52,968 bases of DNA, from assembly GCA_947584375.1 (NCBI GenBank), contig CANPWL010000010.1:1-52968 (forward strand), given 5' to 3'. Made by a program: the position numbers and the translations under genes. This DNA comes from an uncultured Clostridia bacterium. GTDB lineage: Bacteria; Bacillota; Clostridia; Oscillospirales; Ruminococcaceae. The notes beneath the pieces are model-generated. The model was not told the DNA's origin. It was given only the letters and a program-made list of their open reading frames with translations, and did no database searches. Below are positions 21,163-41,676 of the stretch, in pieces (the first letter of the stretch is position 1; every line of letters begins with the position of its first letter).

Positions 21163-21576
21163 CTACTTATCAAAGCTGGGGTTAAAAGCATAGAAGTTTT
21201 TAGCGTCAAGACCGTCCTGAACCATGCGGAGACCTTCGCCAAATCTCTGGAAGTGAACTATCTCACGTTCTCTGAGGAATTTGATAGGATCCCTTACGTC
21301 AGGATCATCGGCAAGCCTTAGTATGTTATCATAAGTAAGACGAGCCTTTTGTTCAGCGGCAAGATCCTCTGTTAGGTCAGTAATAGGGTCGCCGGTAGAC
21401 TGGAATGTCGCAGCCGAGAAAGGCATACCCGATGCAGCCTGAGGATAAAGTCCTGTTGTATGGTCTACAAAATATGTGTCAAAACCGCCTTCTTTTATTT
21501 CTTTAATAGAAAGGTTTCTGGTTAGCTGATAAACTATTGCACTTACTATCTCCATATGTCCGAGTTCTTCAGTACC
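21163..21576 (-). CDS. cotJC: Spore coat protein CotJC, C-terminal part (split gene)
   Basis: This open frame encodes GTEE (from the 12-bp repeat), then LGHMEIVSAIVYQLTRN onward for 133 residues, ending NPSFDK and a stop. It matches the C-terminal two thirds of CotJC, a manganese-catalase-like protein of the inner spore coat: GDPITDLTEDLAAEQKAR and FLREREIVHFQRF carry the second set of metal-ligand Glu/His. It has no start codon or ribosome binding site of its own, and an in-frame TAA lies at 21586-21588, just outside the repeat. The missing first 65 codons are at 41005-41199 on the same strand. The frame is undamaged, which argues against a decayed pseudogene and for repair by excision of the DNA between. 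Confidence 0.95.
   Translation of the reverse strand, partial: GTEELGHMEIVSAIVYQLTRNLSIKEIKEGGFDTYFVDHTTGLYPQAASGMPFSAATFQSTGDPITDLTEDLAAEQKARLTYDNILRLADDPDVRDPIKFLREREIVHFQRFGEGLRMVQDGLDAKNFYAFNPSFDK
21565..21576 (-). repeat. 12-bp direct repeat, element end 1 (att core)
   Basis: GGTACTGAAGAA on the minus strand encodes Gly-Thr-Glu-Glu. It is identical to 41005-41016 and in the same orientation. Identity ends sharply on both sides (CTC against TAC after the core, TAT against ATA before it), as expected for recombination sites. Confidence 0.92.
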
Positions 21577-21581
21577 ATAAT

Positions 21582-21596
21582 GTTATAAATTACAAG
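21582..21596 (+). repeat. Inverted att arm, recombinase end
   Basis: GTTATAAATTACAAG lies 5 bp inside the 12-bp core. It is inverted relative to CTACAATTTATAAC at 40978-40991: ten bases match perfectly (GTTATAAATT) and the outer bases partly. In the excised circle the two arms would flank the core, 30 bp apart, as paired recombinase-binding half-sites. Confidence 0.65.
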
Positions 21597-21602
21597 ACCG
21601 TC

Positions 21603-23210
21603 CTATAAAGCGGATAAGTTATGTTCTTTATCAGAATACTTATTAAGCTTTGGATAAATTATTAATTTAAAGTTATCAGGCGATTTTCGTCTTGCTTCTA
21701 TTTCTTTTACATATATAACTTTTTTGATAATTTCCTTAAGCAGATCATTCTTTCCCTGAGCGGTAGGCAGTTCATTGTATACATCAATTATTTTTTTTGC
21801 CTTTGGAATTATATTAGCAATATCTTCATCATCATTTTCAATTTTTAATTCTTGTACAATGGCATTAATAGAATTTTTAGTTTGTTCTATTTTACCTCCG
21901 AGTAAGCTTGAACGTTTTAGGAACGTATCATTGTCATAAATATTTTGTTCAAGTAAATCGTGAGTTTTGTTTAACTGCTTGTTAAGAGTTTCAAGTTCAG
22001 TTTTTAGTTTGTTTAACGCTTTTCGTCTAATTTCTATTTGATAAGAGGCTTTAGATTTATTCGAGTTTGAATTCCATTCAAGCTTGTATTGTCCAAGCCA
22101 GTTTTCAAGGGATTGTAAAATGCGCTGTTCAACTATATTTAAGTTGGAGCTGACATTATTGCAGGAAGTTGAGGGACACATCAGTGTGTCGGGATATGCT
22201 CGGTTGCTATTTGGACGGCGTACCATACAACGACCGCATTTTCCGCATAAAACAATACCTGAAAGCGGATTTTTAACAGTATTATGTTCATTAATAGGAA
22301 GAGGCGGATTTTTATGAAGATACTCTTGTGCAAGATTAAACGTATCTTCAGATATGATCGGAGAATGTAAACCCTTACAGATAATACTATCATTGGAACG
22401 TGGACGTGAAACAGTGACTTTGCCATCTATAATTTTTTTAACATTGTGCCTCCAATTCCAACGTATTTTTCCAATGTAAACAGGATTTGCAATAATATCC
22501 CGAATAGTTGATACGACCCAGTCTCCGCCCGTTTTAGTTGGAACCTTCATACTGTTTAGACGGCGTGCTATCAAACTTGTTCCCAGACGTTTATAAGAAC
22601 CGTCAGATTGTTTTTCTCCGACAGTATACCACTCGAATATCAAACGGATAATTTCAGCCTGTTCTTCAATTATAGATAATGTCCAGCCCTTATCATTCTT
22701 GATACGTACACGCTCATAGCCATAAGGGGACTTATTAGCCGCATACTTGCCTTCTTTCACAGAGGCGATACGCCCGCGTTGCAGCCGACGGTTAATCATT
22801 TTATATTCCCGACGTGACATAAACAAACCAAATTCAAAATATTCTTCGTCAAATTCATTATCAGGATTATATGTTTTTAACGGAGTTATGATTTTTGTAT
22901 TACTGTATTTGAATGTTTGTGATACTATGCCCTGATCGATAGTATCTCCTCTGGCAAGACGTTCAACTTCCATCACCAATACGCCTTCCCATAAACCCTG
23001 TTCTACTTCCTGTAAAAGCTGCTGCATAACCGGACGTGAGGCAATAGTTTCACCGGATACGATTTCACGGTAGATTTGCGTTATATTTAATGTCATACTT
23101 TTTGCAAGCTCAATCAATGTTTTTTCGTGACGCACAAGAGTTTCACCTTCACCGTGTTCTTCTGCTTCAGCGTCTGCACGTGATTTTCGTAAATATATAC
23201 AATATGGCAT
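21603..23210 (-). CDS. Large serine site-specific recombinase (SpoIVCA-like)
   Basis: This 535-residue enzyme has an N-terminal resolvase domain beginning MPYCIYLRKSRADAEAE with catalytic Ser10, VMEVERLARG (the conserved arginine region), a recombinase domain (about 160-270), a zinc-ribbon segment with CGKCGRC and a later CPSTSC, and a coiled coil (about 390-460), the usual large serine integrase layout. ATG at 23210 is chosen because AAGGTG lies six bases upstream; an in-frame GTG at 23219 overlaps that site. The stop codon is 27 bp from the att core of the split cotJC. A sigma-E-like promoter precedes it. It is intact and is the obvious enzyme for excising the element and rebuilding cotJC in the mother cell. 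Confidence 0.93.
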   Translation of the reverse strand: MPYCIYLRKSRADAEAEEHGEGETLVRHEKTLIELAKSMTLNITQIYREIVSGETIASRPVMQQLLQEVEQGLWEGVLVMEVERLARGDTIDQGIVSQTFKYSNTKIITPLKTYNPDNEFDEEYFEFGLFMSRREYKMINRRLQRGRIASVKEGKYAANKSPYGYERVRIKNDKGWTLSIIEEQAEIIRLIFEWYTVGEKQSDGSYKRLGTSLIARRLNSMKVPTKTGGDWVVSTIRDIIANPVYIGKIRWNWRHNVKKIIDGKVTVSRPRSNDSIICKGLHSPIISEDTFNLAQEYLHKNPPLPINEHNTVKNPLSGIVLCGKCGRCMVRRPNSNRAYPDTLMCPSTSCNNVSSNLNIVEQRILQSLENWLGQYKLEWNSNSNKSKASYQIEIRRKALNKLKTELETLNKQLNKTHDLLEQNIYDNDTFLKRSSLLGGKIEQTKNSINAIVQELKIENDDEDIANIIPKAKKIIDVYNELPTAQGKNDLLKEIIKKVIYVKEIEARRKSPDNFKLIIYPKLNKYSDKEHNLSAL

Positions 23211-23239
23211 AGCAATCACCTTGTAATTAAGATATTGTA

Positions 23240-23269
23240 TTTGTATGTAAATATTATATGTATTAGGAC
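23240..23269 (-). promoter_or_regulatory. Candidate sigma-E (mother-cell) promoter for the recombinase
   Basis: On the minus strand GTCCTAAT (23269-23262) and CATACAAA (23247-23240) are 14 bp apart. The Bacillus sigma-E consensus is roughly GTCATATT and CATACAAT with a spacer of about 14, giving 6 of 8 and 7 of 8 matches. The start codon is 30 bp downstream of the -10 box. An overlapping sigma-K-like CATATAATA also occurs. Both point to mother-cell expression. Confidence 0.6.
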
Positions 23270-23308
23270 AATTTATTTTAAGAATATATTAATTTTGGGG
23301 GTGAAATT

Positions 23309-23497
23309 ATGATTGATGGCACAAATGATAACTTTACAGAAGACTTTATGATAGGTAATACAAGAATTAAAATTACAGCGGACTTTTGTGCAGATCAAAC
23401 TTGGGAAGAAAAACGGGAGATACTTGAAAGAATTGCACAAAAGGTGAAACCAATGCTTGTGAATTCTATAATTGTTAAAAGTAAAACTAGATTTTAG
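23309..23497 (+). CDS. Small protein divergent from the recombinase (candidate directionality factor)
   Basis: This 62-residue protein starts at ATG 23309 after GGGGGTG. It has an acidic first part and a helical, charged second half (FCADQTWEEKREILERIAQKV) ending in basic residues. No conserved family is recognised. It is transcribed away from the recombinase, and its start codon is about 100 bp from that of the recombinase. Serine-integrase elements often encode a small recombination directionality factor near the integrase; SP-beta SprB is of similar size. That role is inferred from position and size only. It could instead be a transcriptional regulator of the pair. Confidence 0.5.
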   Translation: MIDGTNDNFTEDFMIGNTRIKITADFCADQTWEEKREILERIAQKVKPMLVNSIIVKSKTRF

Positions 23498-23763
23498 ATT
23501 TGAATAATTTTGTAAAGAAAAATTGATTTAGTTTAGTATACATAATTGTTGTTGTTTTATTTAATAACTTTTGCTAAAAAGTATGTTGAATAATTTGTAA
23601 CTGTATTTTATAAAAGCAGGTACATATTATATCAGACTTTCACTGGACAACAGCTCATTTGGCACATATGATATGAAATATAGATGATAGGATCTTAGAG
23701 GATAAAGAATTTAGCCTGTTGCTACGTATTAATCTGATTTTTCAAAAAAACAACTTGCAAAAA
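23498..23763 (+). other. Gene-free stretch before the amidase gene
   Basis: The stretch is AT-rich with no supported gene. A sigma-K-like -10 element CATATTATA occurs at 23623-23631 without a convincing -35 partner. It ends at the hairpin starting at 23764. Confidence 0.4.
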
Positions 23764-23799
23764 CACCGCTGTAAGCATATAATACAGCGGTGATTTTTT
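23764..23799 (+). terminator. Terminator-like hairpin touching the amidase start codon
   Basis: CACCGCTGT (23764-23772) pairs with ACAGCGGTG (23784-23792), and ATTTTTT runs into the ATG at 23800. It has the form of an intrinsic terminator, and its right arm contains the only possible ribosome binding sequence (GGTG). It could stop upstream transcription or control translation of the next gene. Confidence 0.6.
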
Positions 23800-24285
23800 A
23801 TGTATGTAATTAATTATAATAGACTTGCCGCAGCAGAATATGCTAAGCGGTGGGCATTGGGAAGAAATCCTGTTTACTATGATTTTGAAAATATAGGCGG
23901 AGACTGTACAAATTTTATTTCACAGTGCATTTTTGCAGGCTGCGGAATAATGAATTATACTAAGGATATCGGATGGTACTATAACGGTCTTTCCGACAGA
24001 GCTGCCGCATGGACCAGTGTAGAACAACTGTACAGGTTTCTTATTTCCAATAAGGGAGCAGGACCTTTTGGTGAAATTTCTGATTTGAAACGCTCTCAAG
24101 TAGGGGATATTGTTCAGCTTTCTGACGGAGAAGTTTTTTATCACAGCTGTATTATTACAGGTTATGAATTTGGTTCTCCGTATGTCTGTGCACACACATA
24201 TGATGTCTTGAATAAACCATTGAGAAATTATAACTATAACAGTCTGAGGGTAATTCATATTTTAGGTGCCAACAGCAACAGTTAA
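23800..24285 (+). CDS. Putative amidase-domain protein (Amidase_6 / NlpC-P60-like fold)
   Basis: This 161-residue protein contains NYNRLAAAEYAKRWALGRNP, then DFENIGGDCTNFISQCIFAGCG with the conserved Cys, and a later HSCIITGYE with a His. This is the pattern of the Amidase_6 domain found on clostridial sporulation or wall-associated proteins. No signal peptide is visible, so it may act in the cytoplasm or mother cell. The start is as close as one base to a terminator-like hairpin, an unusual arrangement. A peptidoglycan or peptide amide substrate is inferred from the family. It lies inside the intervening element next to the recombinase end and may be original element cargo. Confidence 0.72.
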   Translation: MYVINYNRLAAAEYAKRWALGRNPVYYDFENIGGDCTNFISQCIFAGCGIMNYTKDIGWYYNGLSDRAAAWTSVEQLYRFLISNKGAGPFGEISDLKRSQVGDIVQLSDGEVFYHSCIITGYEFGSPYVCAHTYDVLNKPLRNYNYNSLRVIHILGANSNS

Positions 24286-24419
24286 TGTTATTATTGGGAA
24301 CGGTTCTTGTTCCGAGATTGCATAAAAACTCTGCCTTGTGCATACTTAACAAAGGCAGTGTGTATATTTAAAAATCATTAATAGGATTTTGATTATTTGT
24401 TTCTGCCGTAATATAAAAA

Positions 24420-24444
24420 CCGCCTTAGGAAAAACCTAAGGCGG
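24420..24444 (-). terminator. Intrinsic terminator after tRNA-Lys
   Basis: On the minus strand CGCCTTAGG and CCTAAGGCG pair around a TTTTT loop, followed by GTTTTTATAT. The hairpin lies 28 bp downstream of the tRNA 3' end. Confidence 0.85.
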
Positions 24445-24471
24445 CAATGTCAACGGCGGTTAGCCGTTGCT
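24441..24471 (-). repeat. Small hairpin repeat, copy 1
   Basis: This is a GC-rich 31-bp unit (GCGGCA, then CAACGGC-GGTTA-GCCGTTG, then CT) sharing 24 of 31 positions with 52853-52883. The outer stem differs by a paired change (CAAC/GTTG here, CACC/GGTG there), so base pairing is kept. It starts directly at the tRNA-Lys 3' end. Confidence 0.55.
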
Positions 24472-24547
24472 TGGTGAGCTATCGGGGATTCGAACCCCGG
24501 ACCCTTTGATTAAAAGTCAAATGCTCTGCCAACTGAGCTAATAACTC
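24472..24547 (-). tRNA. tRNA-Lys (anticodon UUU)
   Basis: This is a 76-nt cloverleaf on the minus strand. Acceptor GAGTTAT pairs with ATAGCTC, the D arm includes AGCTCAGTTGGCAGAGC, the anticodon stem-loop is TTTGA-CTTTTAA-TCAAA giving anticodon TTT, and the T arm has GGGGTTCGAATCCCC. The 3' CCA is encoded. It lies inside the predicted excisable element. If it were the only UUU-reading lysine tRNA, excision in a growing cell would be lethal. Confidence 0.96.
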
Positions 24548-24712
24548 ATATAGTATTTACCTGTTCTAAATTGTAGCTTTATAATTATAACAAATGTAAA
24601 ACAGCTTGTCAATAGTTTTTAGTAAAAAATTTTGATATTGCGATTTTAGTTTTTTATTGATATTTTTTACATATGATCTAATTTTATACTTTACTCATTT
24701 ATTTCAGATTTG

Positions 24713-24741
24713 TTGACAACTAACTGTATTTGTGATACTAT
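24713..24741 (+). promoter_or_regulatory. Sigma-A promoter for nadA
   Basis: TTGACA (24713-24718) and TACTAT (24736-24741) are 17 bp apart, an almost perfect vegetative promoter, about 95 bp upstream of the nadA start codon. Confidence 0.75.
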
Positions 24742-24746
24742 AATTA

Positions 24747-24778
24747 TCAGTCCTACAATAACAGTAGGAATATACTGA
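24747..24778 (+). promoter_or_regulatory. Inverted repeat in the nadA leader
   Basis: TCAGT-CCTAC and GTAGG-...-ACTGA form an interrupted palindrome just downstream of the predicted transcription start. It could be an operator or a leader hairpin. It does not match the NiaR operator pattern I know, so the regulator is unknown. Confidence 0.45.
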
Positions 24779-24836
24779 CTGATATTTGTTGACAAAGCAT
24801 AGTAAGATTTTATTTTACAATGTGCGGAGGATTATT

Positions 24837-25757
24837 ATGGCAAAAACAATTGCAGATGTTCAAAGTGAGATATTGAAGCTTAAAAATGAAAAAGATATAT
24901 GTATATTGGCACATAGCTATCAAGGAAGGGAAATTATTGAAATAGCAGATTTTGTTGGTGATTCCTTTGCGCTTTCTGTAAAGGCGAAAAGCGTTCTGAA
25001 TAAGATTGTTATAATGTGCGGAGTTCGCTTTATGGCTGAAACCGTTAAGCTTTTATCTCCCGATAAGACAGTGATACTATCTAATAAGAACGCCGGGTGT
25101 CCAATGGCTGAACAGTTTGAAAAGGAAGAAATAGAGTACATAAAAAAGAAAAACGGAGATCCTTGCGTTGTATGTTATATTAATACAACGACCGAACTTA
25201 AAACCGTTTGCGATGTTTGTGTTACATCTTCATCTGCTTTGAAGATTGTTAAAAAGCTTGATGCTAAGGATATTCTATTTATACCTGATATTAATTTGGG
25301 TACATATGTTAAGAATAATGTTAAGGATAAAAACATTATGCTTCTTCACGGAGGGTGTCCTGTTCATGCGTGTGTAACAGGGAGTGAGGCGCTAAAGGCA
25401 AAGGAGGAGCACCCGAACGCTTTGCTGTTAGTTCACCCGGAATGTGTTCCTGAAGTGGTTAAGCTTGCTGATTATGTAGGTTCAACATCAGGCATAATGG
25501 AATTTGCAAAGGCATCAGATTCTAAGGAGTTTATCATAGGAACAGAACAGGCAATCGTTGAAACGCTTCAGTTTGAATGTCCTGATAAGTCATTTTATCC
25601 TCTTAGCGTAAATTTAACTTGCAGAAATATGAAAACTACAACACTTGTAGATGTTTTGAATTGCTGCAAGGGTACAGGCGGAGAGGTTATTGAACTTGAA
25701 GAGGAAACTATGAAAAAAGCTAAGAAATGTATCGACAGAATGATTGAACTGGGATAG
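24837..25757 (+). CDS. nadA: Quinolinate synthase
   Basis: NadA (306 residues) condenses iminoaspartate with dihydroxyacetone phosphate to quinolinate in NAD synthesis and needs a [4Fe-4S] cluster. Three cysteines with the family's spacing are visible: Cys88 in NAGCPMAEQ, Cys174 in HGGCPVHACV and Cys262 in TCRNMKTTTL. Early motifs include LAHSYQGREI and CGVRFMAET. ATG at 24837 follows GGAGG (24826-24830) and gives the usual family start and length; upstream in-frame codons lack a ribosome binding site. nadB and nadC are not in this window, so the gene stands apart from the rest of the pathway. Confidence 0.95.
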   Translation: MAKTIADVQSEILKLKNEKDICILAHSYQGREIIEIADFVGDSFALSVKAKSVLNKIVIMCGVRFMAETVKLLSPDKTVILSNKNAGCPMAEQFEKEEIEYIKKKNGDPCVVCYINTTTELKTVCDVCVTSSSALKIVKKLDAKDILFIPDINLGTYVKNNVKDKNIMLLHGGCPVHACVTGSEALKAKEEHPNALLLVHPECVPEVVKLADYVGSTSGIMEFAKASDSKEFIIGTEQAIVETLQFECPDKSFYPLSVNLTCRNMKTTTLVDVLNCCKGTGGEVIELEEETMKKAKKCIDRMIELG

Positions 25758-25766
25758 AATAGTTAA

Positions 25767-25805
25767 AAGCAGTTAAAGGAGGTTTTCCTTTAGCTGCTTC
25801 ATTAT
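25767..25805 (+). terminator. Bidirectional terminator between nadA and dpaB
   Basis: AAGCAGTTAAAGGA pairs with TCCTTTAGCTGCTT around a short loop (25767-25799). T-rich sequence follows on the plus strand (CATTATTTTT), and the stem also serves the convergent dpa operon. Confidence 0.75.
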
Positions 25806-25817
25806 TTTTAAGATAAT

Positions 25818-26417
25818 TTATTTTTTTAATAACGGCTGAATTTGTTTTCCCTCAAGTGCGTATGATATTGCTTCAGGCACAAGCTCAAAGTGGGCAACTA
25901 TTGAATTTGGTTTGTTGATGTAATCATCTTGAGAATACGGTACAAAGTAATAATTTTTGTAATTTTGTAATGTTCCTATATTTTTGGCACTTGCAGAAAG
26001 AGCGTCGTTTGTAGAAATTGCTATAAGTACGGGTCTTGAGTTCCTGAGATGGGATTTACAGGCCATTGTGACGGGGGTATCGGTTATACCCAGACTAAGT
26101 TTTGCAAGTGTATTAGCCGTACAAGGAGCTACTACTATAATATCAAACATCTTTTTCGGACCTATCGGTTCTGCGTCTTCTATTGTGACGATAGCCTTGC
26201 ATTTGCATATTCTTTCAAGCCAGTCTACATTGTCAGAAGCTTTTCCGAATCGTGTATTAATTGATGCTGAATTAAATGACATTATGGGCGTTACCTTGCA
26301 GCCGATCTGTACAAGCTGAGAAGCGCATGAAAATGCTTTTTCAAACGTACAGAAGGATCCGCATACGCAGAATCCTACTCTTAGCCCGTCAAATATGTTG
26401 TCTTGATTTATTGCCAC
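25818..26417 (-). CDS. dpaB: Dipicolinate synthase subunit B (flavoprotein family)
   Basis: DpaB (SpoVFB, 199 residues) works with DpaA to oxidise the lysine-pathway intermediate to dipicolinic acid, the spore-core chelator, in the mother cell. The sequence has the flavoprotein layout: VGFCVCGSFCTFEKA (phosphate-binding start), VIVVAPCTANTLAKLSLGITDTPVTMACK and RPVLIAISTNDALS. Length is normal. It overlaps the end of dpaA by 10 bp. The pair lies inside the predicted intervening element, so after excision it would be expressed from the free circle in the same cell that needs it. Confidence 0.93.
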   Translation of the reverse strand: MAINQDNIFDGLRVGFCVCGSFCTFEKAFSCASQLVQIGCKVTPIMSFNSASINTRFGKASDNVDWLERICKCKAIVTIEDAEPIGPKKMFDIIVVAPCTANTLAKLSLGITDTPVTMACKSHLRNSRPVLIAISTNDALSASAKNIGTLQNYKNYYFVPYSQDDYINKPNSIVAHFELVPEAISYALEGKQIQPLLKK

Positions 26418-27292
26418 GGATCGTCGCCCCTTTCATCGAGTATGTTAAGTATTGTATCTGCAATTATTTTTCCCGATGTTACAGGCGCTACCTTTCCGGG
26501 AAGACTTAGAGCCCAGATTGTTTTAAGTCCAAGCTGTCTTGCATTGTCAAAATCAACTCCTCCGGGCTTTGAAGCAAGGTCGATAACTAAAGTGTTCTTA
26601 TTAATCTTAGACAGCTTTTCTTTGTCTAGAATTTTAGCAGGAACAGTATTTATAATTAAATCAAATTCAGAAAGAGAAATATCGATTTTATCGATATCAA
26701 TTGATTTATAACCGTATAATTCCGCCCATGCAAAAGCATTAAGATTTCTTGCACAGATAGACACGTCGCTTTCTAAAGCCTTAAACAGTTTTGCACAGGC
26801 TTTGCCAACTCTTCCGAAGCCTATTATGAGAATTTTAGATCCTGCAACTGTAATAGGCATTTCTTCAATGGCAATTGATAATGCTCCTTCTGCGGTTGGG
26901 ATACAGTTTTTTATTTTAAGTTCATCACGGATGTAATAATCAACTGAAAAATGCCCATGTTCAAAAAACAGAGTCCTTAGGTTTTTACTCAGATTTCCGC
27001 CGACAACGATACTGTGCGGTTTCATAGCTGAAACAGCTTCGTCCAAGGTGATTTCTCCGTCAAAAAACGGAGCGTTTACAGTTCTGTCATCATTACTAGA
27101 TATTATTGGAAGGACCAAAACATCAATCTGTTCCTTGATGTCATTAAGACTTGATATTTTTTTTAGTTTTGAGTTGTCATAAATATTAAAGCCGAAGCAG
27201 TATACATCATATCCTTTATCATATAATCTCTTTGCTAAAAATGTTTGACGTGAATCACCGCCAAGCACTAAAATTTTTTTATTATTAATCAT
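26408..27292 (-). CDS. dpaA: Dipicolinate synthase subunit A
   Basis: DpaA (SpoVFA, 294 residues) is the dehydrogenase-like subunit. It has an N-terminal KILVLGGDSRQTFLAKRL segment and a central Rossmann fold with ILIIGFGRVGKACAKLFKAL and VIDLASKPGGVDF, ending ALSLPGKVAPVTSGKIIADT. All family landmarks are present. ATG at 27292 is preferred: GGAGGG lies nine bases upstream, whereas the in-frame ATG at 27313 precedes that site. A sigma-K-like promoter lies upstream, agreeing with late mother-cell expression of dpaAB in Bacillus. Confidence 0.94.
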   Translation of the reverse strand: MINNKKILVLGGDSRQTFLAKRLYDKGYDVYCFGFNIYDNSKLKKISSLNDIKEQIDVLVLPIISSNDDRTVNAPFFDGEITLDEAVSAMKPHSIVVGGNLSKNLRTLFFEHGHFSVDYYIRDELKIKNCIPTAEGALSIAIEEMPITVAGSKILIIGFGRVGKACAKLFKALESDVSICARNLNAFAWAELYGYKSIDIDKIDISLSEFDLIINTVPAKILDKEKLSKINKNTLVIDLASKPGGVDFDNARQLGLKTIWALSLPGKVAPVTSGKIIADTILNILDERGDDPWQ

Positions 27293-27348
27293 AAGGGTTA
27301 GCCCTCCAAGCATAAGAATTTTTATAATGAGAAAAATAAGGGATAGTT

Positions 27349-27375
27349 CATTATATGTGTTATTTTCTTTTGTGT
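27349..27375 (-). promoter_or_regulatory. Candidate sigma-K promoter for dpaAB
   Basis: On the minus strand AC (27375-27374), 16 bp, then CATATAATG (27357-27349) agrees with the sigma-K pattern AC-N16-CATANNNTA except at the last base. It lies about 57 bp upstream of the dpaA start codon. Confidence 0.5.
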
Positions 27376-27485
27376 TAATATTGAAAATGAATAGACATAA
27401 TGCTATAATGAAAATAAACAGTTATCAGTTTTATAACTAAAACGGATTTGTTTTGACAAAGTTTCAATAAGAAACGGAGATAAGT

Positions 27486-28403
27486 ATGAATAAGATTTCA
27501 GTCGATAAGATCAATTTAAACTTGCGTACCGACAGAAAGAATTTTATTAATGAATGTGAAAGAATTTATGACTCACAGCTTTATGAGGTTGCAAACGCTA
27601 TAAGCGACCGTTCATTTCAAAGACCGATTATTCTGCTGTCGGGACCATCCGCATCTGGTAAAACTACAACTGCTATGAGGCTTGAAAATCTGCTTGAAAA
27701 TTTAGGGCATCCTTCAAAAACACTGTCGCTTGACGATTATTTTTTTCCGCTTGATAAAAGTTGTGAGAATATCGACTTTGAGGCTCCTGAAAGAATAGAT
27801 ATTCCTTTATTAAAAAAACAACTTGAGGATATTGCTTGCTGTAAAGAGGTTATTTTACCGGACTTTAATTTCAAAACTCAGAAGAGAATGGTAAAAGAAA
27901 GATATAAAAGACAAAAGGATGAAATAGTTGTAATTGAGGGTATTCATGCTTTAAATCCTGATGTAACAGGGGATAACGATGATTTTTCAAATAATATATA
28001 TATAAGTGTAAGAACAAGAATAATTGACAAAGACGGCATTTCATTCCATCCTTCAAAAATAAGGCTTATAAGGCGTATATTTCGTGATACACAGTTTCGT
28101 GCAAGGAGTATCGAAACTGTTCTAAATCAGTTTAAAAGCGTAGAGCGAGGGGAAAATCTTTATATTATGCCGTTTAAAGAGCGCTCTCATTTTGAAATCG
28201 ATACGTTTATGGGATATGAACTTTCTGTGTATAAAGATTGTCTGATAAAAATGCTTGTGAATATAAAAGATACATTTGCTGATTATCATAAATTTGAGTC
28301 TTTGGAAAAAATGCTTAAACAGCTTGACTCTTTGGATTCTTCTCTTGTTAAAAAGAATTCAGTCGTGCGGGAATTTTACGGAGGAAGTGAGTTTGAATAT
28401 TAA
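27486..28403 (+). CDS. Uridine kinase-like nucleoside kinase
   Basis: This 305-residue P-loop kinase of the uridine kinase/phosphoribulokinase family would phosphorylate a nucleoside or small metabolite with ATP/GTP. The motif LLSGPSASGKTT (about 52-63) is the P-loop, TLSLDDYFFPLD follows, and IVVIEGIHALNPDV is the family's second strand. The N-terminal 45 residues (LNLRTDRKNFINECERIY) are an extension seen in clostridial members. ATG follows CGGAG. The rpe gene follows 31 bp downstream, so the two are probably one operon in pentose/nucleotide metabolism. The true substrate is uncertain. Confidence 0.82.
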   Translation: MNKISVDKINLNLRTDRKNFINECERIYDSQLYEVANAISDRSFQRPIILLSGPSASGKTTTAMRLENLLENLGHPSKTLSLDDYFFPLDKSCENIDFEAPERIDIPLLKKQLEDIACCKEVILPDFNFKTQKRMVKERYKRQKDEIVVIEGIHALNPDVTGDNDDFSNNIYISVRTRIIDKDGISFHPSKIRLIRRIFRDTQFRARSIETVLNQFKSVERGENLYIMPFKERSHFEIDTFMGYELSVYKDCLIKMLVNIKDTFADYHKFESLEKMLKQLDSLDSSLVKKNSVVREFYGGSEFEY

Positions 28404-28434
28404 GGCTTGTAATTTGAAAGGAAGTGACATAGCT

Positions 28435-29088: not shown

Positions 29089-29090
29089 CG

Positions 29091-33106: not shown

Positions 33107-33133
33107 TTGATCAGATAAGCGGATTGAAATAAA

Positions 33134-33310: not shown

Positions 33311-33392
33311 AATATATCCTCCTTTTTTATTTGTAATAGTAATTTTCCCGAAAAAACAATTGTATATTCAGAGATTTTTTTGTAATATAAGG

Positions 33393-33421: not shown

Positions 33422-33460
33422 ATTTTAGAAATTAAATGTAATTTTTTTAGGAGAAATTTT

Positions 33461-34318: not shown

Positions 34319-34347
34319 ACAGAAATGATACGGGAAAGGAAGTTATT

Positions 34348-35115: not shown

Positions 35116-36026
35116 TGTCGGATCTGTCAGTAAATTTCTGTGGAGTTGATATGAAAAATCCTTTGATCACAGCCAGCGGAGCTTACGGTTACGGACGTGA
35201 ATATGTTGATCTTTACCCGATTTCAGCTATCGGAGGGATATCTACAAAGGGTACAACGCTAAACGTAAAAGACGGCAATCCTCCTCCGAGAATTGCGGAA
35301 ACTCCGAGCGGAATGTTAAACTCTGTCGGATTGCAAAACGGCGGACTTGAAAGGTTTATAAGTGTTGAACTGCCTAATCTTGAAAAACAGGATATAGCTA
35401 TAATTGCAAATATTGCCGGAGGTACAATTGAGGAGTGTGTAGAGCTTGTTTCAAAGCTGGAAGGAACAAGCGTGGATATGATAGAGCTTAATATATCCTG
35501 TCCGAATGTTAAACAGGGCGGAGCGGCATTTGGAACAAACAGAGATTGTGCCGCTGAAATTACAAGTGCGGTAAAGCGTGCAACTTCCAAACCTCTTATG
35601 GTTAAGCTTTCGCCAAATGTAACCAGTATATCAGATATCGCAAAAGCAGTTGAGGCTGCCGGAGCTGACGCACTGTCTTTGATAAATACTTTGCTCGGTA
35701 TGAGAATAGATATAATGTCAAGGCGTCCGATTCTTAAGAACAATGTAGGCGGACTTTCAGGACCGGCTGTATTTCCCATAGCTGTAAGAATGGTATGGCA
35801 GGTTGCAAATGCAGTTGATATTCCTGTGTGCGGAATGGGCGGAATATCCTGTGCTGAGGACGCTATTGAAATAATGATGGCAGGTGCCAACTGTTTTCAG
35901 ATCGGTGCTGTTATGTTTAACGATCCTTATGCCCCTGTGAAAATTATTGACGGGCTTAATGAATGGTGCGAAAAAAACGGAGTAAAGAATATAAGTGAAA
36001 TTGTAGGAACGGTCAAGCCGTGGTAA
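35115..36026 (+). CDS. pyrD: Dihydroorotate dehydrogenase, class IB catalytic subunit
   Basis: PyrD (303 residues) oxidises dihydroorotate to orotate with FMN. Landmarks are ITASGAYGYGREY, GISTKGTTL, LNSVGLQNGG, ELNISCPNVKQGG with the catalytic Cys of class I enzymes, MVKLSPNV, LINTLLGMRIDI, GGLSGPAVFPIAVRMV and VCGMGGISCAEDA. ATG at 35115 overlaps the pyrK stop by one base and gives the standard family start, with GAGGAGG upstream. Catalytic Cys and PyrK partner together define class IB. Confidence 0.96.
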   Translation: MSDLSVNFCGVDMKNPLITASGAYGYGREYVDLYPISAIGGISTKGTTLNVKDGNPPPRIAETPSGMLNSVGLQNGGLERFISVELPNLEKQDIAIIANIAGGTIEECVELVSKLEGTSVDMIELNISCPNVKQGGAAFGTNRDCAAEITSAVKRATSKPLMVKLSPNVTSISDIAKAVEAAGADALSLINTLLGMRIDIMSRRPILKNNVGGLSGPAVFPIAVRMVWQVANAVDIPVCGMGGISCAEDAIEIMMAGANCFQIGAVMFNDPYAPVKIIDGLNEWCEKNGVKNISEIVGTVKPW

Positions 36027-36050
36027 TATATAGGTTGTATAAGTATGTCA

Positions 36051-36078
36051 AAAGAGGGACTTTTGTCCCTCTTTTTAG
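36051..36078 (+). terminator. Intrinsic terminator after pyrD
   Basis: AAAGAGGGAC and GTCCCTCTTT pair around TTTT, followed by a short T run. Confidence 0.85.
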
Positions 36079-36416
36079 TTTATTTTTTTATAGCTGTGAA
36101 AAGTAACAAAGTTTGTAACAATTGACTATGATTTATTTCAATATTGTAATCAATTTGTAATTATTAACGATTTCTCGACAATAAATTGCACAAATATGTG
36201 ACTTAAGATAACATAAGATTATATAAAATAAACAAAACTTACATATTAAAAAGGTTACAAAACATTTGACTTTTGTAACCTTTTACTTTAGAATATCAAA
36301 AAGCACTTTGAGTTAGACAGACGGTTACTGTTTTTTGTGCTGATGTAAAACATATAAAACGTGTAATTATTTATGAGAGAACAGAGTGAAAATTCACTCG
36401 TGATTGGAGGAGCGAA
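36079..36416 (+). other. Gene-free stretch with an orphan hairpin
   Basis: No gene is seen. AAAAGGTTACAAAA (36249-36262) pairs with TTTTGTAACCTTTT (36271-36284) in a long AT-rich stem with T-rich ends on both strands, like a bidirectional terminator, yet no gene ends beside it. Just before the transglutaminase ribosome binding site, GAGTG and CACTC (36386-36400) form a small stem that could shape translation. Confidence 0.5.
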
Positions 36417-37373
36417 ATGAAAATTTTATTTTATTTCAAGATGATTTTTATAAAACATCTTGAAAAGGTCATAGCCTGTGCCGCCACAGGGCTGTTTGCA
36501 GTGTCCATGATACAAAATATAAGTACTATTAGCTTTGATGATAAATCAGACAAAGATAATACATCAAACTCTTTGAGTATTTATGAATTTATGGCAGAGC
36601 CAAACAGCAGAGAAATTGAAAAGATCACATCTTTGCCAAAAACAGAGGCTTTAATTATTAAAAAGGATGATAAAGAAAATAATAACGAAGTTACAAAAAA
36701 AACGTCAGTAACTTTAAACAATGACGCCGAAGAGACAAAAGCTTCAAATGTTTACTGTAAAAAAACAAAAACCGAATCAAATAAAAAAGTGAATATGAAA
36801 AAAACGGACAGCAAAAAAAACGAAGAAAGGGAATCAAGTTCAGGTAATAAAAAGAAGTCTATTATAAAAAAGAAATCACATAAATATAAGAAAACAGGAA
36901 ACATAATTAAGGACAGATTAAATTCTGTTGAGCTGAAGCCAAATAAATTTCTCAAGGGAAGAGAAGAAAAAATTCTCATAAAGCATTTAGATAAAATAAT
37001 TGATGATGATATGTCAAACTATGAAAAAGCAAAGGCGTGTTATGATTATATAATAAACAACACTTATTATTCATACGGTGGATGGGGAAATGCAATTGAA
37101 TCTGTTCTTGAAAACGGTTTTGGCACTTGTACCGAATACTCATATGTATATATGGCAATGATGAGGTATCTCGGATTTAACGCAAAGACGGTTGACGGAA
37201 GTACCGCAATGGCTGCCGGAGGATACGGTTATCATATGTGGACTGAAGTTAAGCTTAACGGAACTACATATGTTTTTGATCCTCAGGTTGAAGATGATAT
37301 GTCAAACGGGAAGATAAATTATTATAGATTTTGTAAGACCTATTCGGAGGTTTCCGGCTCGTATATAAAATAA
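36417..37373 (+). CDS. Secreted transglutaminase-like protein
   Basis: This 318-residue protein has an N-terminal membrane segment (VIACAATGLFAVSMI, about 18-32), a long Lys/Glu/Asn/Ser-rich linker (about 60-165), and a C-terminal transglutaminase-like domain with GFGTCTEYSYVYMAMMRYLG (Cys238), GYGYHMWTEV (His273) and YVFDPQ (Asp288). The full Cys-His-Asp triad is present, so it should be an active cysteine protease or transglutaminase outside the membrane. The highly charged linker would bind wall polymers. ATG follows TGGAGGAG. Confidence 0.85.
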   Translation: MKILFYFKMIFIKHLEKVIACAATGLFAVSMIQNISTISFDDKSDKDNTSNSLSIYEFMAEPNSREIEKITSLPKTEALIIKKDDKENNNEVTKKTSVTLNNDAEETKASNVYCKKTKTESNKKVNMKKTDSKKNEERESSSGNKKKSIIKKKSHKYKKTGNIIKDRLNSVELKPNKFLKGREEKILIKHLDKIIDDDMSNYEKAKACYDYIINNTYYSYGGWGNAIESVLENGFGTCTEYSYVYMAMMRYLGFNAKTVDGSTAMAAGGYGYHMWTEVKLNGTTYVFDPQVEDDMSNGKINYYRFCKTYSEVSGSYIK

Positions 37374-37489
37374 TATATTCATAATCGGCGGACTTATCTT
37401 AAAAAAGATTTGTACGTCTTTTATGTTTATTGAATAAATATGAAAAGTATGCCAATAATCTATTTAGAAAAAGAAAGTGAGGCATACAT

Positions 37490-37780
37490 ATGCAGACAAA
37501 TCTATATGAAAACAATAAGCAACTATTTAAAAGAGAAAGAATCAAGGCTGCAATTATAATAGGCTTTATGGCAGCAGTTTTTATGTCATTTACTTTTGGA
37601 GAAGAGTTAAAGGAACTGTCATTTTTATTCCCTGAGTTCAGCATTTCTCCGTCAGTAAGATTGGATGAAGAAAATAAAAACAAAGCAAAAAGCTCGGATG
37701 ATTTAGTAGTTGAGGTTGAGGAGGATGAAAAGCCGGATGTAAGATTTTTTATTATCGACTTTTTTAAATCACTGTTATAG
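37490..37780 (+). CDS. Small single-pass membrane protein, unknown
   Basis: This 96-residue protein has a basic start, one hydrophobic segment (AAIIIGFMAAVFMSFTFG, about 20-37), then a segment that turns acidic (LVVEVEEDEKPD) and a hydrophobic end (VRFFIIDFFKSLL). The start ATG is preceded by GAAAGTGAGG with a short spacer. No family is recognised. It follows the transglutaminase gene by 116 bp in the same direction. Confidence 0.6.
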   Translation: MQTNLYENNKQLFKRERIKAAIIIGFMAAVFMSFTFGEELKELSFLFPEFSISPSVRLDEENKNKAKSSDDLVVEVEEDEKPDVRFFIIDFFKSLL

Positions 37781-37888
37781 GTAAGATTTTAGAATCAGCA
37801 GTAATATTGTATAGACTGCCGTTTCTTAAAAGTTTTATGTATCTTAAATATGATTAACGGCTGGCTGAGAAAATATCATATAAAACAC

Positions 37889-37922
37889 AAAAGTGTTCAG
37901 GAATGACCTGAACACTTTTCTT
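37889..37922 (+). terminator. Intrinsic terminator
   Basis: AAAAGTGTTCAGG and CCTGAACACTTTT form a thirteen-pair stem around AATGA. It lies about 110 bp after the small membrane protein gene and upstream of the lysA-like promoter, separating the two units. It is near symmetric, so it can act on both strands. Confidence 0.8.
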
Positions 37923-38008
37923 GTATCTTGTTTCCGACTTCTTGTCCTTTCTTCTGATTGATAAATATGTACTATTTATTAAAATATTCTTCTTTATCAT
38001 ATAAGACC

Positions 38009-38038
38009 TTGACAAAAACGGTCAAAAAATGTTATTCT
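38009..38038 (+). promoter_or_regulatory. Sigma-A promoter for the lysA-like gene
   Basis: TTGACA (38009-38014) and TATTCT (38033-38038) are 18 bp apart, roughly 97 bp before the start codon. The 354-bp stretch 37781-38134 otherwise holds only this and the terminator at 37889. Confidence 0.6.
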
Positions 38039-38134
38039 GTCTATATGTTTTATTCTGATAAAGTGATGAAATAAGCAGTAGACGTCAAATCATTTTAGGA
38101 GAAAGTAATTATAGTATTAATAAGAGGTGCACAG

Positions 38135-39394
38135 ATGAAAAAACCGTTTGTTACTAGGGAAATAATTGAGAAGATAACTAAAACTTATCCTACCCCTTTT
38201 CATATATACGACGAAAAAGGAATTCGTGAAAATGCAAGAAGGCTCAACAAGGCATTTTCGTGGAATAAGGGATTCAAAGAGTACTTTGCAGTAAAGGCTA
38301 CCCCTACTCCCGGTATATTAAAAATATTAAAGGAAGAGGGCTGCGGAGTAGATTGTTCTTCGCTCACTGAGCTTATGATGAGCGAGGCTTGCGGATTTAC
38401 AGGCTCGGATATAATGTTTTCGTCGAATGCAACGCCCGATGAAGACTTTCTTTTGGCAAAAAAATTGGGTGCTAATATTAATCTTGATGATTTTTCGCAT
38501 ATTGAAGTATTGGACAAACTTTGTTCAATCCCAAAAACAATATGCTGCCGTTACAATCCGGGCGGGAATTTTGAGATTGCAAATAAGATAATGGATAATC
38601 CCGGTGACGCTAAGTACGGAATGACAAAAGAACAGATTATTGAGGCATACAAAATACTTATGAAAAAGGGTTCAGAAGAATTTGGGATTCATTCGTTCTT
38701 AGCTTCTAATACAATTTCAAATGAGTATTATCCTGAGCTTGCAAGAACTCTGTTTGAACTGGCGGTTGAACTTCATGAGAAAACAGGGGCAAAAATCAAG
38801 TTTATCAATTTATCAGGAGGCATCGGTATACCTTACCGTCCTGACGAACCTGCAAATGATATTGAGATCATAGGAGAGGGAGTTAGAAAAGCCTTTGAAG
38901 AAATATTGGTTCCTGCCGGAATGGGTGATGTGGAAATTTATACAGAGCTTGGCAGATTTATGTTAGCGCCATACGGACATCTTATTGCAAAGGCTGTTCG
39001 TGAGAAGAATATTTATAAGAATTATATTGGTCTTGACGCTTGTGCCGCTAATCTTATGCGTCCGGCAATATACGGAGCATATCATCACATTACAGTGTTA
39101 GGAAAGGAAAACGAACCTTGCGAATATAAATATGATATTACAGGCGGACTTTGCGAGAACAATGATAAATTTGCCATTGACAGGATGCTTCCAAAGATTG
39201 ATATAGGCGATTATATTTGTATTCACGATACAGGAGCTCATGGATTTTCTATGGGATATAATTATAACGGAAAACTTCGTTCTGCGGAGATACTTCTCAA
39301 AGAGGACGGAAATACAGAGCTTTTGCGCCGTGCCGAAACACCAAGCGACTATTTTGCTACCTTTGATTTTACGCATCTTTTTGATAATATATAA
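38135..39394 (+). CDS. lysA: Diaminopimelate decarboxylase-like PLP enzyme
   Basis: This 419-residue fold-III PLP enzyme has the PLP-binding Lys in EYFAVKATPTPG, the barrel motifs VDCSSLTELMMSEACG and FINLSGGIGIPYRP, a phosphate-binding region near YTELGRFMLAPYG, and the C-terminal active-site segments GGLCENNDKFAIDR and DTGAHGFSMGYNYNG. LysA makes lysine from meso-diaminopimelate. The protein is a divergent clostridial type, so another amino-acid or polyamine decarboxylase cannot be excluded, but the CENNDKF and GAHGFSM motifs favour LysA. GAGGTG precedes the ATG. It is inside the predicted intervening element. Confidence 0.8.
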   Translation: MKKPFVTREIIEKITKTYPTPFHIYDEKGIRENARRLNKAFSWNKGFKEYFAVKATPTPGILKILKEEGCGVDCSSLTELMMSEACGFTGSDIMFSSNATPDEDFLLAKKLGANINLDDFSHIEVLDKLCSIPKTICCRYNPGGNFEIANKIMDNPGDAKYGMTKEQIIEAYKILMKKGSEEFGIHSFLASNTISNEYYPELARTLFELAVELHEKTGAKIKFINLSGGIGIPYRPDEPANDIEIIGEGVRKAFEEILVPAGMGDVEIYTELGRFMLAPYGHLIAKAVREKNIYKNYIGLDACAANLMRPAIYGAYHHITVLGKENEPCEYKYDITGGLCENNDKFAIDRMLPKIDIGDYICIHDTGAHGFSMGYNYNGKLRSAEILLKEDGNTELLRRAETPSDYFATFDFTHLFDNI

Positions 39395-39407
39395 AAAGCT
39401 GTTTATG

Positions 39408-39435
39408 AGAGTACTTATAAAAGTACTCTTTTTTA
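39408..39435 (+). terminator. Intrinsic terminator after the lysA-like gene
   Basis: AGAGTACTT and AAGTACTCT pair around ATAA, followed by TTTTTTAAT. Confidence 0.85.
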
Positions 39436-39592
39436 ATATCTGACATTATGTTTTAACAGACATTGCTATATTAAATATATTGAAAAATGACGTTTTTTAT
39501 TGTATAATTACTGATGGATTTATATGAAAGTTTGAATTTAAAGAAAAATTATATGTATCTAATAAGATATGGTATTATTTACGGAGGTTTTG

Positions 39593-40861
39593 ATGTACGC
39601 AATAAAGAGATTTGCAATTTTTATAATAGCTTTTGCGGCAATTATGTGTGTATCTTTTCTTTTATCAGACAGCTCGGACGCCAATTTTGTTTTGGCTTAT
39701 GACAGTCATGCTTCTGAAACTGAAAGCTCTGTTCCTTCGACGAGCGTTAGTACTGATATTAATACAACCGAATCTGCAACACAAGCTGACGTAACGCAAA
39801 CAGCTACTGTACCGGCAACGGCAGCAACTCTATCGAACACAACGACCACTAAATCAGAATATAAGCGTAAAAGCGTAAAAATAAAAAGTGTAAAGGTTAA
39901 AAAGCTTAATGCTAAGGTGAGTTGGCATAATCTTGAGAATGCAGAAAAATATGAAGTATTTATCTTCAAGAAAAATAAGTGGAAGAAAATCAAATCAACA
40001 CATTTGAATTATTATACAATAAAGGATCTTGAAAATTACAGTACATATTCAGTACGTGTCAGGGCTGTGGTTAGCACACCTTACGGAAGAGATTACAGTT
40101 ATTTTTCTGAGAGCAGGGACTTTGAAATAAACGAAACTAAGCTTTACGATCTAAGAAGCGCAAATCTTCTAAGCAGAAAAAAGAAAGTTAAAAAACGAAA
40201 TGTTTCAGGATATTATACAGGATATGCAAGCGGAAAATATAAGGGCTACATATTGATAGATTACAATTACGGTACATACCTTGTAAAGCGTTCAAAGGTC
40301 AAAATTGTTAAGGGAGCAAAAGTGCTTTCCACGTCAGCTGTTTCTCAAATAAACGGAAAATACAGAGGCTGGTCTGCATGCGGACCGGCTACTGCGACAA
40401 TTCTGCTTAACTCTGAAAAGAAAGCTGATCTTCGCAAAGATGATTTAATCAGGGTTTCTAAAATAAAACATCTTGAGGATCAAGGTTCGGTAACTAAAAC
40501 CGGAGGAGGAATAACTTCGCCTAAACTTATAAAGCTTATTAAGCATTTTGGATATAACGCTAAGAACCTTTATAAAAACTCTATAAAGCCGTCCAAGATA
40601 ATCAAAAAGCAGATCGACTCGGGTAAGAGATGCTTAGTGCTTGTTAAGTACAGCGGAGGTATAATGCCGAACAGCGGGGCAGCGCATTTTGTTGTAATAT
40701 GCGGTTATAAAAAAATAGGCGGAAGGCTTTATTTTTATTATGCTGATCCGTATTACAGTTCAGCCGGCGGAAGAAGCCTACTTTCAGTTTCATCTAGTTT
40801 GATAAACAGGTCTGTCAGCAGAAAATTTTCAGAACCTAATACAGTTTTAGTTTTAGAATAA
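39593..40861 (+). CDS. Secreted FnIII plus C39-like cysteine peptidase
   Basis: This 422-residue secreted protein has a signal peptide (FAIFIIAFAAIMCVSFLL), a Thr/Ser-rich linker (about 40-90), one FnIII-like domain (about 93-178; KLNAKVSWHNLENAEKYEV), and a C-terminal C39_2 peptidase-like domain with WSACGPATATILL (Cys263), GAAHFVVICGY (His365) and YYADPYY (Asp385). The triad is intact, so peptidase or transpeptidase activity outside the cell is likely. ATG at 39593 follows GGAGG by five bases; an earlier in-frame ATG at 39569 lacks a site. It is the last gene inside the intervening element before its right end. Confidence 0.85.
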   Translation: MYAIKRFAIFIIAFAAIMCVSFLLSDSSDANFVLAYDSHASETESSVPSTSVSTDINTTESATQADVTQTATVPATAATLSNTTTTKSEYKRKSVKIKSVKVKKLNAKVSWHNLENAEKYEVFIFKKNKWKKIKSTHLNYYTIKDLENYSTYSVRVRAVVSTPYGRDYSYFSESRDFEINETKLYDLRSANLLSRKKKVKKRNVSGYYTGYASGKYKGYILIDYNYGTYLVKRSKVKIVKGAKVLSTSAVSQINGKYRGWSACGPATATILLNSEKKADLRKDDLIRVSKIKHLEDQGSVTKTGGGITSPKLIKLIKHFGYNAKNLYKNSIKPSKIIKKQIDSGKRCLVLVKYSGGIMPNSGAAHFVVICGYKKIGGRLYFYYADPYYSSAGGRSLLSVSSSLINRSVSRKFSEPNTVLVLE

Positions 40862-40867
40862 TTAAAT

Positions 40868-40908
40868 CCGCTTGTGTTTATCGTTATGATAATACAGGTG
40901 GCTTTTTA
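40868..40908 (+). terminator. Intrinsic terminator after the C39 peptidase gene
   Basis: CCGCTTGTGTTTATC pairs with GATAATACAGGTGG, including G-T pairs and one bulge, then CTTTTTAAT follows. It lies about 70 bp before the element arm at 40978. Confidence 0.65.
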
Positions 40909-40977
40909 ATTGCTAAAATATCGTTTTTTAATAGTTATATTTAATCCTACTACTTGTTTACAGGGAGTATATCAAAA

Positions 40978-40991
40978 CTACAATTTATAAC
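40978..40991 (+). repeat. Inverted att arm, cotJC N-terminal end
   Basis: CTACAATTTATAAC lies 13 bp inside the core repeat at 41005. It is the inverted partner of GTTATAAATTACAAG at 21582-21596. Its sequence also supplies the spurious last codons and stop of the truncated CotJC. Confidence 0.65.
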
Positions 40992-41199
40992 TTTGAGGAA
41001 CGTATTCTTCAGTACCTATATCTGAAAGTATTGCCTTTACTTCATTGCAAGGTGCGGTATATCTTTGTGACAAATAACGCATTGCAGCTCCTAATTCACC
41101 ATCCGGACCGCCGAACTGTGTTATAATTACCTTTGCCAGAGCAGGGTTAGGATTTTTTATGTTTACAGGATATTCAAGTTTCTTTTTATATTGCCACAT
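40978..41199 (-). CDS. cotJC: Spore coat protein CotJC, N-terminal part (split gene)
   Basis: This frame starts with ATG at 41199, overlapping the cotJB stop (TAATG), and encodes MWQYKKKLEYPVNIKN to SDIGTEE (65 residues). It then runs into element DNA for eight foreign codons (YVPQSYKL) and a stop at 40978. The true part matches the CotJC start, including GGPDGELGAAMRYLSQRYT with the first metal-ligand Glu. It stops inside the EExxH metal motif, which the C-terminal part at 21163-21576 completes (GTEE-LGH). Before excision only this 73-residue fragment can be made; after excision 198 residues result. Confidence 0.95.
   Translation of the reverse strand: MWQYKKKLEYPVNIKNPNPALAKVIITQFGGPDGELGAAMRYLSQRYTAPCNEVKAILSDIGTEEYVPQSYKL
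41005..41016 (-). repeat. 12-bp direct repeat, element end 2 (att core)
   Basis: This copy of GGTACTGAAGAA is identical to 21565-21576 and in the same orientation and reading phase. Recombination between the two copies leaves one copy and an unbroken cotJC frame. Confidence 0.92.
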
Positions 41200-41456
41200 T
41201 AGTTCTCACTCCTTTCCCATGGCCAAGGTTTTGTAGCCCATGTCCATTCATCGGTACTGTCAACTCCGCTTACTGTTATAGGAGCATACTTTTCTTCATA
41301 TTTTTCAACGGCTTCTTCGTATTCTTTTTGGTGCTTTCTGAAATATTCAAGCGCCTCTTTGCAGGTTGGGTGGCTGTCAAGGTATAGCTGAGCCTCAACA
41401 ACTGCGAAACCGTGCATTCTTACCGACTTCAATAGTTTACTTCTTTCTGCATCCAT
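41199..41456 (-). CDS. cotJB: Spore coat protein CotJB
   Basis: CotJB (85 residues) is a small coat-associated protein that works with CotJA and CotJC in inner coat assembly. The sequence shows the family pattern GFAVVEAQLYLDSHPTCKEALEYFRK and the tryptophan-rich end DEWTWATKPWPWE. The start at 41456 overlaps the end of cotJA by 20 bp, and its stop overlaps the cotJC start. It is intact and correctly placed, so only the third gene of the operon is interrupted. Confidence 0.95.
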   Translation of the reverse strand: MDAERSKLLKSVRMHGFAVVEAQLYLDSHPTCKEALEYFRKHQKEYEEAVEKYEEKYAPITVSGVDSTDEWTWATKPWPWERSEN

Positions 41457-41676
41457 TTGAAACAGCCTCCTCTCCTATAAATGGCTTGTCGAGAGATGGG
41501 AATATTGTTCCCCGGCATAGAGCAATGTTAACATCGTATGTTTTTTCCCATTTCTGAAAAGGAACGTATGCCATGCCTATTGGTGTACTTTCAGGAAATT
41601 TTCCTTCAGGCTGCGGACAGCCTTCACAAAAGCCGTCTGCACATATGTCAGATGATTTAGGTGTACAAATCTCCAT
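41437..41676 (-). CDS. cotJA: Spore coat protein CotJA
   Basis: CotJA (79 residues) is the first gene of the cotJ operon. It contains PIGMAYVPFQKWEKTYDVNIALCRGTIFPSLDKPF (quoted in parts: PIGMAYVPFQKW, YDVNIALCRGTIFP, LDKPF), the conserved CotJA core, after a cysteine-rich start (CADGFCEGCPQPEG). AAGGAG lies upstream of the ATG at 41676. In Bacillus subtilis the operon is transcribed by sigma-E; I could not find a convincing sigma-E promoter here. Its transcript would cross the element boundary and stop early unless excision has occurred. Confidence 0.95.
   Translation of the reverse strand: MEICTPKSSDICADGFCEGCPQPEGKFPESTPIGMAYVPFQKWEKTYDVNIALCRGTIFPSLDKPFIGEEAVSNGCRKK

Follow-up and report, generated by a model that had tools for sequence, protein, structure and literature searches.

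In an uncultured Clostridia bacterium of the Ruminococcaceae, the spore-coat gene cotJC of the cotJABC operon is stored in two halves, and we consider it likely that a neighbouring large serine recombinase, RecB, joins them by excising a 19.4-kb circle, most plausibly in the mother cell. The halves lie on a stretch of 52,968 nucleotides (contig CANPWL010000010.1), here called the window, which belongs to a genome of 1.72 Mb in 38 contigs (G000). The split itself is confirmed. From 41676 to 41005 the minus strand carries an intact open reading frame (ORF) at 41437..41676, which by its sequence we take to be cotJA, as did a preliminary description of this DNA, then the intact cotJB gene (41199..41456) and directly behind it the first 65 codons of cotJC (41005..41199), which end in a 12-bp repeat. 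In our comparison of loci, ORFs resembling cotJA precede cotJB in several relatives, and among the loci scanned a cotJB match stands directly upstream of 42 of the 44 N-terminal pieces or intact copies of cotJC. The remaining 133 codons and the stop are found at 21163..21564 in the same orientation, so that the gene is broken at codon 65 with its halves 19,440 bp apart. In a profile search both parts exceed the cut-off of PF05067, the 5' part matching positions 1-66 and the 3' part positions 61-196, and neither contains a stop or a frameshift. The core repeat TTCTTCAGTACC occurs at 21565-21576 and 41005-41016, again 19,440 bp apart; on the minus strand it is present at both cut ends as GGTACTGAAGAA, the copy at 41005..41016 belonging to the left attachment site (attL) and the copy at 21565..21576 to the right one (attR). 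When cotJC is joined at the repeat, a single open frame results that fits all 197 of the 197 matched profile positions, including the EExxH stretch. The preliminary description had proposed this arrangement of halves, the intact reading frames, the unbroken join and an intact large serine recombinase near one boundary, and each of these points is borne out.

RecB (21603..23219, minus strand) is a protein of 538 amino acids with the Resolvase, Recombinase and Zn_ribbon_recom domains (PF00239, PF07508 and PF13408) of a large serine recombinase. It is encoded inside the intervening segment, 26 nt from the core repeat at the cotJC 3' part, and is 76% identical to the recombinase found at the same cut in the related genome G012 and 57% identical to that in G005. 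Both boundaries look like attachment sites. The attL-like junction (40970..41040, minus strand) has the element-side arm GTTATAAATT, and the attR-like junction (21540..21602, minus strand), located between the recombinase and the cotJC 3' part, has the arm AATTTATAAC. Combining both ends gives the expected circle junction, a 12-bp direct repeat flanked by inverted repeats that pair at 14 of 20 positions. Divergent from RecB lies an ORF of 62 amino acids (23309..23497, plus strand), a candidate recombination directionality factor. It has no match in Pfam, and a counterpart stands beside the corresponding recombinase of G012 (L007) and, via that sequence, in G111 (L074).

These features suggest the following mechanism. 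The vegetative chromosome would keep cotJC as two halves. RecB, which appears to be phage-derived, would recombine attL (41005) with attR (21576), probably together with the 62-amino-acid protein, joining cotJC at GTEE and releasing the intervening segment (21577..41004) as a circle of 19,440 bp with one copy of the core. Excision would most plausibly take place in the sporulating mother cell, whose chromosome is not inherited. The segment now holds conserved host genes, among them dpaA and dpaB for dipicolinate synthesis. A growing cell that lost the circle should therefore be harmed, which would lock the split into the germ line.

The comparison with related genomes proposed earlier shows that the window is not an isolated case. 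Within the genus cotJC is split in 10 of 15 genomes, while an uninterrupted gene of 198 codons is found in the other five (G001, G002, G007, G008 and G014). Up to three cut sites are used, A near codon 32, B near codon 65, which is the site in the window, and C near codon 175. In G012 the gene consists of four pieces, cut at A, B and C, and in G005 the ends of all three cuts are present. Some pieces were not found, namely the A-to-B piece of G005, the B-to-C piece of G003 and the tails of G009 and G013. As a control, dpaA gives one near full-length match in all 15 genomes. In G014 we also observed a second, frameshifted cotJC fragment reaching from about site B to about site C (L022 1834-2195), approximately 2.4 kb from the intact gene. 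A contig of G004 (L004) starts exactly at a cotJC cut and one of G013 (L021) ends 16 bp past such a cut; these ends might reflect the presence of both joined and split molecules in the sample.

Across the family, 184 of the 248 sampled genomes have a PF05067 match, and in 58 of these the best match is worse than 1e-44, which we read as the lack of a near full-length match. Some of the 58 may be truncations at contig ends, and the number is not an upper bound, because the splits in G000, G004 and G005 are hidden by an intact paralogue. Without G013, 57 genomes were re-examined (G029 and G030, examined in addition, are outside this number), and 48 of them, including the loose fits G184, G199 and G215, have pieces abutting at A, at B or at D, a fourth site close to codon 136; the other nine have no abutting pieces. 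The ATPase domain of the control protein SpoIVA was found in 227 of the 248 genomes, with three matches (G129, G181 and G189) that fall far short of the others listed; the spoIVA gene of the window genome is whole, which speaks for the proposed mechanism. Where both pieces share a contig, they keep the same order and strand at a spacing of about 2 kb (G160) to about 42 kb (G111), and in G160 the recombinase is the sole ORF of at least 80 amino acids between them. Some genomes show other arrangements. In G112 (L070/L071), a single contig of 2.69 Mb, the halves are 674 kb apart, with an intervening arc of 2.0 Mb if the contig is circular. In G123 (L072) the halves occur in swapped order, with no recombinase within the 19.5 kb fetched, and in G087 (L073) they are on opposite strands, where recombination would invert the DNA between them yet still join the gene. 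The attachment sites pair at 16, 14 and 16 of 20 positions in G112, G123 and G087, respectively, and cotJB is directly upstream of the 5' piece in all three. In G156 and G193 (L061, L067) the C-site end of the cotJC piece is closely followed by another recombinase; G156 is probably cut at C as well as B, and G193 at C as well as A and B.

Are the repeats at these cuts real recombination sites? A chance repeat was rejected as an explanation on two grounds. Firstly, the 33 reconstructed circle junctions that were scored pair on average at 13.45 of 20 positions, compared with 9.80 +/- 0.28 in 500 re-pairings, whose maximum was 10.67; 38 junctions had been tried, of which four were dropped for want of a length-consistent core and one for a short flank. 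Secondly, a recombinase of at least 300 amino acids lies within 400 nt of the cut at 34 of 39 junctions. Some open join can be made at 38 of the 39 junctions, in several cases only with a 4-bp core or at the wrong length. The length of the core itself is a weaker argument than the palindrome, because re-paired partners of the same site share at least 6 bp in 39% of cases, with a median of 5 compared with 7 observed.

The pattern of substitutions indicates that the cotJC pieces are under strong purifying selection, with their amino acids almost fixed. In the genus, the 10 split genomes form 45 pairs, for which the median proportions of synonymous (pS) and nonsynonymous (pN) differences are 0.59 and 0.011, and the ratio of nonsynonymous to synonymous substitution (dN/dS) has a median of 0.011 and a maximum of 0.089. 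The 10 pairs of intact genomes have a median dN/dS of 0.005. Between G000 and G004, for instance, dS is 1.29 and dN 0.007. The analysis masked the codons adjoining the cuts. The tail row of G003 includes some residues from outside cotJC, which raises its dN. All these ratios are rough, because synonymous change is near saturation. With this constraint we reject an inactive relic as the principal explanation of the split gene. Fragments of approximately 32 to 65 codons are unlikely to act alone as a manganese catalase, and therefore the joined gene is the likely target of selection. Intact CotJC aligns to solved manganese catalases, in an alignment where the ligands are unlabelled, and residues E35, E65/H68, E136 and H169 are those that we presume to bind the metal. 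Sites A, B, D and C coincide with these positions, in that order, or are no more than about six codons away, and we hypothesise that the integrases may have picked the most conserved codons of the gene.

The viral collections give an indication of where these integrases come from. In IMG/VR there are 60 viral contigs with a cotJC relative, near-duplicates included; in 50 the first matching residue is one of 25-31 or 59-65, corresponding to sites A and B, and in 41 a recombinase match is located within 200 nt upstream. Among viral relatives of the integrases, six of 31 for the A site and one of 10 for the B site carry a cotJC piece, and no relative of the C-site integrase was confirmed in the viral contigs. 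The interval in the split cotJC of G187, which matches Ruminococcus sp. Marseille-P6503 (NZ_UWPB01000001.1), a named strain presumably available in culture, holds genes for integrase, primase, terminase, portal, capsid, tail and endolysin; here the gene is cut at site B and its pieces are 39.6 kb apart. In G006, a gene for a conjugation coupling protein is found approximately 4.5 kb from the cotJC 5' piece. The integrase of Paenibacillus phage phiIBB_P123 is 53% identical to RecB over 528 residues, and the phage attachment site (attP) beside it contains GGTACAGAAGAG within a palindrome. This palindrome matches the circle junction of the window at 15 of 18 positions, with agreement to either side of the core. 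This phage differs from the window in being complete and in the reversed orientation of its core relative to the integrase, and its attachment site in the host was not seen. Four other phage records (THSA-485A, Dorea phage, MT835739 and Bajarodcaudo virus 3) have no cotJC-like core in the attP region, and MT836754 has a short A-like and D-like match at least 317 nt past the integrase stop. Among human gut phage records 12 match cotJC, five of them over at least 80% of the gene. The cotJC pieces in the human gut phage records L285, L286, L287 and L288 start or end at B or D.

We tentatively raise the possibility, to which we give somewhat less than even weight, that cotJC serves as a docking hub at which unrelated phages, conjugative elements and bare recombinases insert at four sites near metal-ligand motifs. 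Some of these would have captured host chromosome, so that sporulation would divide the mother-cell chromosome into two circles that each bear core genes. The circle from the window would measure 19.4 kb and include dpaA and dpaB, and those of G112 would measure approximately 0.67 and 2.0 Mb.

The content of the interval in the window is unusual for a mobile element. Judged by homology, it is mostly conserved host chromosome. The region 23760-37804 is homologous to a chromosomal block located elsewhere in six relatives. Within it, a block of genes at 23800..37780 has the same order elsewhere in G004, G005, G009, G010, G011 and G012, although some of these genomes lack a few of the genes. It comprises, by Pfam, an amidase, nadA, dpaB, dpaA and a small ORF and, presumably, going by their sequences, udk, rpe, a mecA-like gene, a GDSL gene, an ABC-F gene, pdxK, pyrK, pyrD and a transglutaminase-like gene. 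Both dpaA and rpe are single copy in the window genome. A pyridoxal phosphate-dependent decarboxylase identified with Pfam (38135..39394, plus strand) is a host gene of the genus from a different place than the block; it has one match in each of the 15 genus genomes, 80-93% identical outside the window genome, and in the other genomes it sits away from the block as far as the contigs reach. Between the host genes and attL lies a gene for a C39-like peptidase identified with Pfam (39569..40861, plus strand), which has no relative in the regions fetched. Homology to the B element of G012 covers 21235-23460 and ends at 23460. Beyond the cotJC 3' part, a stretch at 20962..21146 is 91% identical to the region beyond the cotJC piece in G009 and looks like an IS200/605-type end, as we assume.

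Prophage or other foreign DNA is usual in skin-type elements, though not strictly required, and none is found at 23760-37804 and 38135-39394, which are host DNA. The preliminary description thus stands in so far as it proposed that a recombinase rejoins cotJC, which is well supported by the att-like ends, the intact recombinase, the constrained pieces and the four cut positions among relatives, whereas its picture of an element of inserted foreign DNA fits the window poorly. Since RecB, its small neighbour and the 3' part adjoin host genes from at least two places, excision would shift those genes onto the circle. This may be harmless for a while in the mother cell. The C-site segment of G005, of about 26.7 kb (L047 8177-19901, L048 and L010), holds metabolic cargo, namely an ABC transporter set with a PBP-like protein, which looks like pst, an AMP-binding enzyme and a surface-type protein of 2135 amino acids, and no phage genes among the genes tested. 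Beside the C-site cut of G011 (L023 756-8014) there is a sulfite reductase-like gene found with Pfam, with neighbours that we take to be hemC-like and thioredoxin reductase-like; these are possibly cargo or captured host genes.

Several observations weigh against developmental excision of the segment by RecB. With the score chosen, sigma-E-like promoters precede five of 39 recombinases and 42 of 771 other genes, which is no clear enrichment. The circle junction of the window was not found in the assembly, nor was the C-type junction in the 15 genus genomes, and the viral collection contains none of three other att patterns. No joined cotJC is present in the genome, where the only full-length PF05067 match is a manganese catalase paralogue at C6:44065-44682. 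A second copy of the last approximately 25 cotJC codons is found at C11:51198-51226, in the 3' context common to relatives. Finally, the interval combines host genes from at least two places, and gene order is broken at both ends of the block.

One account that would accommodate part of this is low-frequency excision in any cell, independent of development, so that only cells in which cotJC happens to be joined make full coats and the split amounts to the scar of an ordinary prophage or island. The full phage gene set in one intervening segment, the conjugation gene in another and the cotJC pieces in 60 viral contigs speak for it, and the promoter counts, with no clear enrichment, are compatible with it. 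The circle of yin, the yabG element, is moreover reported at all time points tested (PMC10747680). Yet a dN/dS of about 0.01 has been maintained over long times despite two or three simultaneous cuts, and the chance joining of several cuts in one cell would be rare. We judge this account unlikely.

Less likely still is a recent, dead rearrangement confined to the window genome, in which the recombinase and the 3' part moved away and the C6 paralogue does the work. That both ends still pair as one attP and that all 198 codons, the recombinase and the 62-amino-acid ORF are open speaks against such decay, although the broken gene order, the host genes from two places and the paralogue itself would fit it. 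The C11 tail also agrees with it, as the C-type att half in front of this tail is decayed and the 560 bp remaining on that contig contain no recombinase. From this tail and att half we infer that the window genome probably once carried a C interruption too. No cotJA or cotJB was found within 3.6 kb around the C6 paralogue, and comparable paralogues exist in G007 and G008, both of which have an intact cotJC. The preliminary description had named a second intact gene as what would make the split copy a relic; a full-length manganese catalase paralogue does exist, but the constraint on the split gene argues against a relic. A misassembled contig, whose true interval is another element, seems very improbable despite the draft state of the genome, its several gene-order breaks and two contigs ending in the same 31-bp sequence, as the split is independent of the interval and eight other stretches (L058-L064, L067) hold both sides of the B cut on one contig with different contents.

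Two observations concern the rest of the genome. Positions 1-31 of the window and the end of C11 (L054) share the same imperfect palindrome of 31 bp, TTTTTTCGTACAACATAATATTCTACGAAAA, possibly a site of recombination or else a repeat at which the assembly broke. At 178-10346 the window contains what we take to be a Tad-type pilus cluster, near a gene for an immunoglobulin-like surface protein of 1839 amino acids. 

The organisation of the window resembles that of known systems. The skin element of sigK in Bacillus subtilis and Clostridioides difficile likewise has a serine recombinase beside one end and a short direct repeat. There the gene is rejoined by excision in the mother cell, whereas for cotJC excision is inferred from sequence; the target also differs, the interval in the window consists of host chromosome, and in relatives a single gene is interrupted up to three times. 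Reports of intervening elements exist for sigK, spsM, spoVFB, gerE and yabG (PMC10747680, PMC5595907). SP-beta in spsM, gin in gerE, vfbin in spoVFB and yin in yabG share with the window a split sporulation gene, a large serine recombinase and attachment sites of direct and inverted repeats, and gin illustrates that an element need not be a phage (PMC5595907). In cotJC, by contrast, integrases of several families act at four sites of the one gene. The prophage phi027 of Clostridioides difficile is reported beside a CotJC-like gene and not splitting it (PMC11222575, PMC12122855). Among the open-access papers listed, titles and opening parts of abstracts describe no element in cotJC, in agreement with the preliminary description, which knew of none. 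The principle is thus that of the skin-type systems, and what is new is the gene, the several integrase families, the four sites, the division into up to four pieces and the host genes inside the interval of the window.

Gene-intervening elements have become known gene by gene, mostly in Bacillus and in a few clostridia. If our interpretation of cotJC is true, programmed DNA rearrangement would be routine in the sporulation of a gut-type clostridial family in which this gene is widely cut. The apparent absence or truncation of cotJC in many genome bins would then have an explanation. Finally, a new question arises, namely how a mother cell fares if core genes that it still requires are on the excised circle.

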